Assembly (NCBI RefSeq): GCF_004343725.1
Contig: NZ_PTQW01000012.1
Coordinates: 1 to 64,000, forward strand
Reading direction: 5' to 3'
Origin: Treponema sp. J25
GTDB lineage: Bacteria > Spirochaetota > Spirochaetia > Treponematales > Breznakiellaceae
Length of the DNA stretch: 64,000 nt
Below are positions 7,429-47,411 of this stretch, piece by piece. A program made the translations under genes and the position numbers. The notes below the pieces were generated by a model. The model was not told the origin of the DNA and searched no databases. It was given only the letters and a program-made list of their open reading frames with translations. The number at the start of each line of letters is the position of its first letter. Within the stretch, counting starts at the first letter, position 1.

Positions 7429-7545
7429 AAAAACCCTCCTTCTTTTTAATAAGATTATAATTACTAGAGAAATAATTTCTTTCTCACCTCCTTTATTAGT
7501 TTCCGTATACAAGTAAATTATCTTTTCAGGAATAAATAATGCATA

Positions 7546-39133: not shown

Positions 39134-41056
39134 TCAGGACTCAAACATGGCAGCTATTTCTTTTGCATAGAGCTCTACTACCTTATGACGCATCAGTTCC
39201 TGTTTATGGGATAGTTCTCGCCCTACCTCAAAGGGTTTGGGAAGCAAAGTGAACTTAAACACCCGCTCAAAGGGTTTAAACCCATTCCGGGGGCTTACCA
39301 GGTCTGCCACATCGTTAGCCACAAGTTCGTATATTTCTGGCTGTTGTAAGAGGGTTTCGTAATCCACAATGGGAATATTGTTTTCCTGCGCAAAAGCCAT
39401 GATGGCATCCTGTTTGGGAACAATGAGGGCCGCCAGATACCTTTGGTCCTGCCCAACCACCATACACTGGGCAATCCATTGGCTTTCCCGCAGTTTTTCT
39501 TCTATGGGGGCGGGTTCTACGTTTTCTCCTCCCCGGAGAACGATGGTGTCCTTTGCCCGACCGGTTATCTTAATTTCGTTATCGTAGGTCAGCATCCCCA
39601 GGTCACCCGTATTAAGCCACCCATCAGGGGAAAGCACCTTTGCGGTGGCCTCGGGTTTCTTATAGTAGCCCTTCATAACCTGACCACCCCGCACCATGAT
39701 AAGCCCCTTGTGTCCCGGGGGAAGGCTACGTCCTTCTTCATCTACAACTTTTACTTCCGTATCCAGAATGATCTGCCCCACACAGCCAGGACGGGGTTTG
39801 CTGGACCGCCGAACTGCCACCACCGGGGCCGTTTCTGTAAGTCCATATCCTTCAAGCAGGAGAATCCCCACGGCGCTAAAGAAACTATCTACCTGGGCCG
39901 GAAGGGCGCCACCTCCTGAAATACCCGCCTGGAAACGCCCTCCCAACTTGGCCTTTATCTTGTTAAAAACTAAGACATTCCCCAGCGCTTTAAAAGGAGT
40001 TAAAAGGAGCCAGGGGATAACACCGATAAGAGTGTCTAAGGCTCTAATCCTTCCATGGAAATTAGGGAGTAATCCAAAGGTAAGGTTCCGCATATAGGCG
40101 TGGGCAGTGCCCACAGCCACAAAGAAATCAAAGAGATGCTTTTTAATACCCCCTTGCTGCTTAATATTCCGATAGATACCGTCCCGCACCGATTCCCAGA
40201 TTCGAGGGACACTAGCCATCCAGTGGGGGCGTACCGCTTGAAAATCGGCCAGCATGATGGAGCCCACCGGTTTTGAGTAGGCAATGGCCGTATTAAAACA
40301 GGGGGCCACGTACTGCATGATCCGTTCAAAGCTGTGCCACACCGGTAACACCGATAGCCACACCTGCCCAGGTCTAAGATCCACAATGAGCGGAAGGCTT
40401 GGTAATTGATGGAGGAAATTGCCATGACTTAGCATGACCCCCTTAGGTTCTCCTGTCGTACCAGAGGTATAAATAATCGTCGCCAGGTCGTCCCGCTGGC
40501 CCTTTTCCATTTCCGCTTCTATCTCACCGGGTTTATTTTTACGTCGCTCTTTTCCTATAGAACGAATTTCACTGTAATGATATAACCGAACACCCTTTGT
40601 TTTGGCGGCCTGGATCGTTTCTTCTGAAACTCGATCATAGGTGATAAGAATGGTGAGGAGCGGAATTCCCTCCTTTTTCACCAGGATCTTTTCCACCTGT
40701 TTTTGATTTTCCGCAAAACTCACCTTACAATCGGAAAAACTCAGGATATAGGCAATTTCAGCGTCTGTGGAATCGCAGCCCCGGGGTACGTCGGCCGCAC
40801 CAAGAGAAAGAATGGCAAAATCGGTAACAAGCCATTCCTGCCGGTTATCCGAAATGAGTCCTACATGATCCCCCCGTTGAACCCCTATTTCGAGGAGGCC
40901 ACTGGCAATCTCACAGACCTCTTCATACATCTCCGCATAGGTTTTAGGTTGAAACACCCCCTTTTCATCTTTAGCATACTGGGCAACAATCTGGGGCATC
41001 TTTTCTGCCCGAGCTTTAAACATGAGGGGCAGGGTTCGCTCTAACTGAAGGCTCAT
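39134..41056 (-). CDS. Long-chain acyl-CoA synthetase (AMP-forming)
   Basis: 640 residues of the ANL superfamily, activating fatty acids to acyl-CoA with ATP. Motifs in order: ATP loop IIYTSGTTGEPKGVMLSHGN, GLTETAPVV, WLNTGDLG with KITGRAKDTIVLRGGENVEP, which is the adenylation hinge. Length and the late insert FGLLPNFHGRIRALDTL fit the long-chain FadD15/FAA-like group. Spirochaetes often import host or environmental fatty acids. A ribosome site (AAGGAG) is present, and a promoter candidate lies at 41152-41179. Confidence 0.9.
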   Translation of the reverse strand: MSLQLERTLPLMFKARAEKMPQIVAQYAKDEKGVFQPKTYAEMYEEVCEIASGLLEIGVQRGDHVGLISDNRQEWLVTDFAILSLGAADVPRGCDSTDAEIAYILSFSDCKVSFAENQKQVEKILVKKEGIPLLTILITYDRVSEETIQAAKTKGVRLYHYSEIRSIGKERRKNKPGEIEAEMEKGQRDDLATIIYTSGTTGEPKGVMLSHGNFLHQLPSLPLIVDLRPGQVWLSVLPVWHSFERIMQYVAPCFNTAIAYSKPVGSIMLADFQAVRPHWMASVPRIWESVRDGIYRNIKQQGGIKKHLFDFFVAVGTAHAYMRNLTFGLLPNFHGRIRALDTLIGVIPWLLLTPFKALGNVLVFNKIKAKLGGRFQAGISGGGALPAQVDSFFSAVGILLLEGYGLTETAPVVAVRRSSKPRPGCVGQIILDTEVKVVDEEGRSLPPGHKGLIMVRGGQVMKGYYKKPEATAKVLSPDGWLNTGDLGMLTYDNEIKITGRAKDTIVLRGGENVEPAPIEEKLRESQWIAQCMVVGQDQRYLAALIVPKQDAIMAFAQENNIPIVDYETLLQQPEIYELVANDVADLVSPRNGFKPFERVFKFTLLPKPFEVGRELSHKQELMRHKVVELYAKEIAAMFES

Positions 41057-41289: not shown

Positions 41290-41444
41290 AAAAACAAAAA
41301 AAGCCTTCCGGGAAAAGGAGGTGAGAAAACCCGGAAGGCCACGCCTGGCTGCGCCATGGACGATCGAATATGGTGCGGGGATTCGATCGGTCGCTAGAAG
41401 CGACTAGATGTACAACCTGGTGCCATCACGCATCGCCAGGAACT
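41290..41444 (-). ncRNA. Candidate small RNA with an anti-Shine-Dalgarno terminator loop
   Basis: About 150 nt with its own promoter (41451-41479) and its own terminator. The terminator stem is a perfect 10 bp (GCCTTCCGGG/CCCGGAAGGC) followed by TTTTTTTGTTTTTT. Its 17-nt loop contains CTCACCTCCTTTT, which copies the 16S rRNA anti-SD core. Other stems are GCCAG/CTGGC at the 5' end, GTCGC/GCGAC, a 9-bp CGATCGAAT/ATTCGATCG stem, and CCATG/CGTGG. No open frame or known family fits. It occupies most of the 454-nt gap between oppF and the acyl-CoA synthetase gene. Confidence 0.65.
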
Positions 41445-41450
41445 GGCTAT

Positions 41451-41479
41451 AAGATAGCAACTTTTAGGAAAAAGGTCAA
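41451..41479 (-). promoter_or_regulatory. Promoter of the candidate small RNA
   Basis: TTGACC (41479-41474), a 17-nt spacer and TATCTT (41456-41451) on the minus strand. The predicted start is near 41444, 67 nt beyond the oppF stop, so the RNA need not depend on opp transcription. Confidence 0.6.
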
Positions 41480-45746: not shown

Positions 45747-47323
45747 TTATTTCTTGCGGGAAATATATTTCCAGTGATGAACTCCAAGGGGATTCCCATA
45801 CCATCCATCCCACTTAGAGAGATCGATAAGATCGAGATCGGTATACCAATAGAGAGGCAGCATAGCCTGGTCTTCGGCAAAGATTTTTTCCGCTTCCATA
45901 AGAACATTGTTCCGTTCTGCTCCCTCAGGCATGGTAGCGGCTTTCTTTACCAGTTCGTCAAATCGTGGATTAGAGTAAAGCCCATCGTTATTACCGCCAC
46001 CGGTGATAAAGAGTTCCAGGAAGTTAGAGGGATCCATATAGTCTGCCACCCATCCATGGCGAGCTACGTCGAAGTTATGAGAATTAGAACGAGTGTCCAG
46101 GAAGGTTTTCCACTCTTCATTCTTAAGATTGCAGGTAATCCCGAGGTTATTTTTCCACTGTTCCTGGATAAACTCGGCAATCTTCTTGTGTCCTTCGTTA
46201 GTGTTATACAGGATGGTAAATACAGGGAATCCCTTTCCATCTGGATATCCCGCCTGAGCAAGATATTCCTTTGCCTTCGCCACATCGTAACCAACCCCTG
46301 GCTGAGGAGTAAAACCAGGCATGGCAGGCGTAAAGGCATCGGTGGGGATCTGGCCTCCCTTAGTAACTTTTTCTACCAGGGCTTTTTTATCTACCGCTGC
46401 TGCAAGGGCCTTTCGTACGAGGGGGTTATTGAAGGGGGCCCGTTGATTGTTAAAGCAGTAATAATACGTGGCAAGCTGCGGATTTACCTGATAGTAGGGC
46501 TGAAGCTTTACTTCATCAATCAGATCCGTGGGAATCTGAGTATCCCAGTCGATTTCTCCCTTCAGGAACATATTATAGGATGTTTTTTCGTCCGTCACAG
46601 CCACGATCTTAAGCGAATTGAGCTTCACATTCTTGGCATATCCCAATATTTAGGATTTTTTACCACAAAGATGTAATCCTGGGGCTTCCATTCCTTAAGC
46701 ACAAAGGGACCATTACCCACAAAGTTTCCCGGTTTTACCCACTGATCACCATACTTTTCAATCACATGCATGGGCAGGGGAGAAAACACATAATGGGGCG
46801 TCATATCTACAAAATACGCGGCAGGGCCCACAAGGGTTACCTGCAGGGTATAATCATCCAGGGCCTTTACCCCCACCGTAGCAGGATCAGTGGTTTTACC
46901 CTGGTTAAATTCTTCCGCTCCCTTTATGATATACATCATATAAGCATATTCTGCCGCCGTTTCAGGCTTAAGCGTCCGAATCCATCCATCGACAAAATGC
47001 TTTGCCGTAAGGGGAGTTCCATCGGACCACTGACTCTTACGAAGCTTAAAGGTTACAACCGTTCCGTCCTCGCTTATCGTCCAGGATTCGGCAATACCGG
47101 GAATAGCCTTTGATGTTTTAGGATCATAAATAGTAAGCCCTTCAAAGAGAGCCATGTATATCCGATGCTCGGGAACCCCCTGAATAAGAGAGGGATCAAG
47201 CGTTTGTGGCTCCGCCGCATTATTCACGATAAATTCAGCCTTATCGGCAGTTGGACCACAGGCGGTTACCACAAGGGCCAATGCCAATACACCGAGGGCA
47301 CCAAAGAAAATCGATCTTTTCAT
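45747..47323 (-). pseudogene. oppA: oppA, oligopeptide-binding lipoprotein, frameshifted
   Basis: The N-terminal part (start 47323, MKRSIFFGALG, AAGGAGG upstream, lipobox VVTAC) ends out of frame at 46625 after KNPKYWDMPRM. The rest continues in another frame from about 46643 (AKNVKLNSLKIVAVTDE to WKYISRKK). Together they make a full family 5 binding protein of about 525 residues. The break lies in GATATGCC: one missing G (giving WDMAKNV) or an extra AT (giving WDAKNV) would repair it. The other opp genes are intact. It may be a real recent inactivation or a sequence error. Confidence 0.85.
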
Positions 47324-47411
47324 ACCCGCTTCCTCCTTGAAACAATCTAGAAGAGGCCAGAATAGCCCCCTTCTACTATGACTCAATATATATACACCGC
47401 TCCCCCTATTT

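Follow-up and report, generated by a model that had tools for sequence, protein, structure and literature searches.

A small RNA of spirochaetes carrying a copy of the 16S anti-Shine-Dalgarno sequence in its terminator loop

The alpha-r14/NfeR1 small RNA (sRNA) of Sinorhizobium is Hfq-independent and represses by pairing at the Shine-Dalgarno (SD) sequence, with its anti-SD held in unpaired hairpin regions whose stem sequences are divergent (PMC10746234). The csRNAs of Streptococcus, which belong to the CiaR regulon, occur as several related RNAs per genome; their anti-SD is unpaired, lies between two stem-loops and is often accompanied by the anti-start CAU (PMC3091779). The terminator loop is the pairing site in RepG of Helicobacter pylori, which targets a G-repeat in one leader and not the SD consensus (PMC8295292), and the RsaE/RoxS RNAs of Firmicutes are conserved within their lineage and aim C-rich stretches at SD regions (e.g. 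PMC4409812). In Flavobacterium a strong rpsU SD serves the autoregulation of bS21, which works via ribosomes without bS21 and involves no sRNA (PMC9976891).

We analysed a stretch of 64,000 nucleotides from Treponema sp. J25 (contig NZ_PTQW01000012.1; "the window"), which carries on its minus strand, from 41479 to 41296, a promoter, a folded RNA of about 149 nt and an 11-bp terminator. Our comparisons indicate that this sRNA most likely acts like the anti-SD sRNAs (NfeR1, csRNAs, RepG), yet it lies outside all of the families that we tested. Its anti-SD stands in an unpaired hairpin region and its stem sequences diverge, as in alpha-r14/NfeR1, but it has a single terminator loop with the 16S-type UCACCUCCUUUU where alpha-r14 has three hairpins, each with CCUCCUCCC, and it comes from another phylum. 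Like the csRNAs, it is one of several related RNAs per genome with an unpaired anti-SD, and the anti-start CAU is seen in its siblings too; however, its anti-SD is found in the terminator loop, while the siblings have anti-SD stretches both there and between stem-loops. The csRNA promoters are CiaR-dependent, whereas those found here are TTGACC (window) or ECF-type (sibling), and no TTTAAG pair of the CiaR motif TTTAAG-N5-TTTAAG was seen upstream of the window sRNA or its homologous loci. The C/U-rich terminator loop, predicted to be exposed for pairing, recalls RepG, whose sequence is unrelated. RsaE/RoxS are unrelated to the window sRNA in both sequence and fold. We know of no full 16S-tail identity in RsaE/RoxS.

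Searches of Rfam gave no match at the gathering score for the window RNA or for 16 homologous loci, and a scan of the window RNA at E ≤ 10 gave only sub-threshold matches, among which suhB/mmgR was the sole sRNA family (15.9 bits, cut-off 41). Our searches of the open-access literature returned no report combining anti-Shine-Dalgarno, sRNA and terminator loop, and none of such an anti-SD RNA in spirochaetes or, by title, Treponema. Hfq was detected in the positive-control genomes and in 0 of the 29 genomes searched, so that this sRNA, unlike Hfq-dependent sRNAs, would act without it. The features of the locus and the two further features of the window referred to below are as follows.

41474..41479, minus strand: -35 box TTGACC, read from the sequence and from homologous loci, 76 of 86 of which have TTGAC at the equivalent position
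41451..41456, minus strand: -10 box TATCTT with a 17-nt spacer to the -35 box, from the sequence and homologous loci
41296..41444, minus strand: predicted small RNA of about 149 nt (fold z -5.06; 135 of 195 family genomes have a homolog scoring 57-76 bits)
41435..41440, minus strand: 5' arm CCTGGC of P1, the closing stem of the 5' domain, from the fold and 57 aligned homologs
41344..41349, minus strand: 3' arm GCCAGG of P1, partner of CCTGGC, from the fold and aligned homologs
41330..41340, minus strand: terminator 5' arm GGCCTTCCGGG, from the sequence, the fold and compensatory changes in 9 of 10 modelled pairs
41313..41329, minus strand: terminator loop TTTTCTCACCTCCTTTT, anti-SD copy, predicted unpaired, from its invariance and an unpaired probability of 0.999 in 57 homologs
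41302..41312, minus strand: terminator 3' arm CCCGGAAGGCT, from the sequence and the fold
41296..41302, minus strand: terminator T-run, from the sequence
39134..41056, minus strand: gene for an AMP-binding (acyl-CoA synthetase-like) enzyme, downstream of the sRNA
7480..7494, minus strand: AAAGGAGGTGAGAAA, complementary to the loop over 15 nt without mismatch, candidate site in a small lipoprotein ORF's leader

The 5' end of the sRNA was placed 7 nt past the -10 box. The predicted fold has an energy of -61.6 kcal/mol (z -5.06 against shuffles), and the 5' domain folded alone gives z -3.26. Ten Watson-Crick pairs and one G-U make up the terminator stem, which closes a 17-nt loop, UUUUCUCACCUCCUUUU, that includes UCACCUCCUUU, the 16S rRNA 3' tail of relatives. 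Loop and 16S 3' end have 11 nt, TCACCTCCTTT, in common; that end reads GGATCACCTCCTTTCA in four family genomes, and GGATCACCTCCTTTC is read at all 16 of the 16S 3' ends taken from seven complete genomes of spirochaetes, of which four are in the same family. The 16S 3' end was not found in the window's own assembly. An earlier note on this DNA had proposed a TTGACC-17-TATCTT promoter, a highly paired RNA of about 150 nt and a terminator whose loop copies the anti-SD; its coordinates, promoter and terminator were correct when we re-read the minus strand, and the fold and the 11-nt identity agree with the remainder.

The presence of this sequence in the loop of a terminator is not due to chance. 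There are 25 copies of CACCTCCTTT in the whole genome, and the one at the sRNA locus is the only copy that sits in a strong terminator loop. As a control we took about 224 kb of the same genome, which holds 251 terminator-like sites, a handful with CCTCC in the loop; by our reading, two of these sites are strong terminators with a CCTCCTT-core loop, namely the sRNA locus and a hairpin of contig C6 that is shorter. At about 91149-91179 of C6 (G000:C6, L032, minus strand) we observed a third terminator with an anti-SD-like loop, GTTCCTCCTTA, behind TTGAAA-17-TATACT.

The hairpin was found by blastn in most of the genomes of the same family that we searched. At E ≤ 0.01 a covariance model matched 161 of the 195 family genomes, and 135 of the 195 scored 57-76 bits (counted from the table). 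Its E-values were too generous: 21 of 29 control genomes of other groups also gave weak matches at E ≤ 0.01, the best reaching 35.1 bits with the exception of one bacterial hairpin at 43.6 bits. We therefore trusted only scores above about 37 bits combined with a CCTCC/CTCC loop. Some weak matches from the phylum, such as L146, which has no anti-SD loop, were dropped. The genomes of all species were scanned with the pattern GGTTTN{0,3}CACCTCCTTTTCC; among the matches listed, all 46 with Spirochaetes or Treponema in the title have terminator stems of at least 8 bp, and among the 34 other matches listed only one, from a Spirochaetota MAG (L229), does. A further locus, L167 (BP7.bin59, 2663-2707), has an anti-SD terminator hairpin according to the covariance model, not according to the stem count.

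Over 42 distinct alignment rows the stem is 99.5% paired and 9 of its 10 pairs vary on both sides with compensation (1.2 in shuffles), while slid versions of the pairing drop to 73% or less. The loop core CACCUCCUUUU is unchanged where the stem pairs covary. It should be noted that the invariance of CACCTCCTTTT in 86 of 86 loci was seen in loci chosen by a pattern requiring that core; the same invariance was present in 21 sequences found by BLAST, independently of the pattern. The earlier note held that its proposal would fail if related loci kept the stem and lost the anti-SD loop; since the loop is invariant while the stems covary, the opposite is the case. A closing stem (CUGAU...AUACGG/CGUAU...UCAG), changed on both sides, is common to 57 longer homologs. 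The body upstream of the terminator ranges from 18 to more than 100 nt across homologous loci, and by eye no conserved peptide was seen in the alignment of the 57 homologs. Judged by these sequence comparisons, this is a real and lineage-wide small-RNA family, whose function we infer.

The same comparisons agree with the proposal that the RNA is free-standing, as it has a conserved promoter of its own and varying neighbours. TTGAC-N18-TANNNT is found upstream of 76 of 86 homologous loci, compared with 0.65% of shuffled upstream regions. The flanking genes differ among loci and the gene upstream is not conserved. Of 76 loci, 55 have the first downstream gene on the strand of the sRNA and 21 have it on the opposite one, and in 17 family loci, including those of the nearest relatives, this gene is a same-strand relative of the AMP-binding gene. 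In the window, a separate promoter for the AMP-binding gene, TTGACA-16-TACATT, lies between the terminator and the gene's start.

A diverged sibling locus in the same genome was found by the covariance model (G000:C3:116628-116669, L113), and sibling loci are also present in several other families of the class. In the window's genome the sibling is preceded by the ECF-type promoter GTAACC-N15-TGTT and contains two CU-rich stretches of anti-SD; many sibling loci carry a second CU-rich CCUCCUUU in the linker, and in two related genomes (L124 and L129) there are two tandem hairpins, each with an anti-SD loop. The motif GTWACC-N15(14)-NGTT lies upstream of 14 of 40 sibling loci, several being closely related to one another, with 0.0027 expected per 220 nt. 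The sibling promoter appears to resemble those of ECF sigma factors, judging by the AAC of its -35 element and the GT of its -10 element. Genome-wide the motif is not enriched: genomes contain about 10 sites each, which is close to the number in controls, and we therefore claim no ECF regulon. In two genera (L306 and L312) the same ECF-like motif is followed by a common GACGAGGGCGTGCGG, a candidate conserved transcript start. In 7 of 13 non-redundant sibling linkers, CAT stands on the 5' side of the anti-SD at a distance of 0-8 nt; together, CAT and anti-SD are the complement of SD-spacer-AUG, which points to translation initiation regions as putative targets. Some sibling loops (UCUCCUUU, ACUCCUUU) differ from 16S yet still fit SD pairing.

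The earlier note had suggested that the loop could block translation broadly and that the opp operon could be a target or partner. Broad action is doubtful: the full complement AAGGAGGTGA has six sites in a complete relative (G026), of which one is the sRNA, three are 16S and only two lie elsewhere. Because full complements are this rare, pairing would be selective, with rpsU as the best candidate, or would take place in short registers, and it is unlikely from these counts that the sRNA acts on all mRNAs. Nor does opp look like a partner, as it has only 4-7 contiguous nt complementary to the loop and the upstream gene is not conserved; opp was rejected as a target as well. Predicted duplexes of opp and the downstream gene, at -7.8 to -11.2, did not favour the loop over the 16S tail. 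The opp solute-binding gene is split into overlapping frames (46625-47386 and 45747-46646, minus strand), reflecting a frameshift or an assembly error. The site at 7480..7494 was also rejected; it lies about 50 nt upstream of the lipoprotein ORF's ATG, this ORF has another SD nearer to its start, and a search of G026 gave no match to the site.

In its own genome AAGGAGGTGA precedes few genes, among them rpsU, which encodes bS21 and is the best candidate target, not a result. The rpsU leader contains AAAGGAGGTGAGAA, with 14 contiguous nt that could pair with the loop. Of 19 family genomes, counting the window's own, 13 carry AAAGGAGGTGA at rpsU, and TTG is a frequent start codon there. The predicted duplex with the rpsU leader is -26.4 kcal/mol for the loop and -21.7 kcal/mol for a relative's 16S tail. 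In the leader sequences used for these and the opp duplexes, a few bases were filled in. An exceptionally strong rpsU SD is common to Flavobacterium (PMC9976891) and this family. The extended SD must have another reason to exist, since one genome (G021) keeps it and the sRNA was not detected there. Among the upstream regions of rpsU (L366-L395), those of the family have an SD complementary to nearly all of the 16S tail, mostly followed by a TTG start. The rpsU genes from different families of the order frequently show ATC, ATT or ATA as the apparent start codon, which was assigned from the alignment alone.

We consider it likely, with room for error, that this is a trans-acting RNA which pairs with the ribosome-binding sites of selected mRNAs. 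We counted in its favour the loop core, invariant among covarying stems, and the predicted unpaired loop; the conserved promoter of its own with neighbours that vary on both strands; the control ceiling near 35 bits against at least 57 bits in 135 of 195 family genomes; the CAT beside the second CU-rich stretch of the siblings; the rpsU SD with its predicted duplex; and the failure to find Hfq in the 29 genomes. Weighing against it are the scarcity of full-length complements in mRNAs, the extended rpsU SD of G021, and the exact 16S-tail identity, which would also fit rRNA mimicry toward a protein. In that case the loop would titrate a protein that binds the 16S 3' tail (the bS21/bS18 platform, Era, S1 or another), which we regard as unlikely, and a resulting change in ribosome composition or biogenesis is no easier to credit. 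The 11-nt identity is kept across the family though full SD complements are rare, and bS21 helps to bind the 16S tail in Bacteroidia; however, bacteria outside Bacteroidia lack the pocket (PMC9976891), the GGA(U) found before the anti-SD of 16S is missing from the loop, the sibling loops UCUCCUUU and ACUCCUUU deviate from 16S while fitting SD pairing, and CAT beside CCTCC in the siblings points to start codons. It is more doubtful still that the RNA is a sponge or target of an SD-like RNA, or vies with 16S for SDs and thereby slows initiation in general: in predicted duplexes the loop almost matches the 16S tail in pairing with any SD, but such a brake would require ribosome-like amounts, and a partner RNA was not found.

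Two further explanations concern the terminator itself. That it belongs to a cis-acting leader or attenuator, setting read-through into the acyl-CoA synthetase-like gene, would account for the 17 loci where this gene comes first on the same strand, nearest relatives included, and for same-strand genes in 55 of 76 loci. Most loci have some other downstream gene, on the opposite strand in 21, the window's gene has the promoter TTGACA-16-TACATT beyond the terminator, and no alternative antiterminator fold was seen; we find such a leader improbable. We give almost no credence to an ordinary terminator with a CU-rich loop that closes an untranslated or chance transcript. Terminator-like sites are common and the model matches 21 of 29 unrelated genomes weakly, but those matches end near 35 bits, only one other strong CCTCCTT-core loop occurs among the 251 sites, and the promoter is conserved along with a loop that stays invariant while its stem covaries.

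The sequence shows a promoter, a fold, an exposed loop conserved beside a covarying stem, restriction to one lineage and no detectable Hfq, and from this we infer how the trans-acting RNA that we prefer would work. The sRNA would be made from its own sigma-70-type promoter, its 5' domain would fold into a closed structure, and its terminator hairpin would expose the 16S anti-SD tail as an unpaired copy. This loop would pair with the SD regions of selected mRNAs and block binding of the 30S subunit, with no need for Hfq. The best targets would be strong, extended SDs, with rpsU (bS21) the leading candidate. A bolder proposal, to which we give a small chance, is that spirochaetes possess an ancient pair of anti-SD sRNAs, one with a housekeeping-type and one with an ECF stress promoter, that controls bS21 and so sets ribosome composition; that this control would run through the extended rpsU SD or through 16S-tail mimicry is equally speculative.

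This sRNA represents a new RNA family which, judged from sequence, is kept across a whole spirochaete family and probably silences selected genes via their ribosome-binding sites. Spirochaetes such as Treponema have few known sRNAs and no detected Hfq, and a stand-alone RNA with a 16S anti-SD loop found family-wide offers a testable entry to RNA regulation in these bacteria. It is also an unusually clean case in which to ask how a copy of a ribosome sequence may achieve selectivity.
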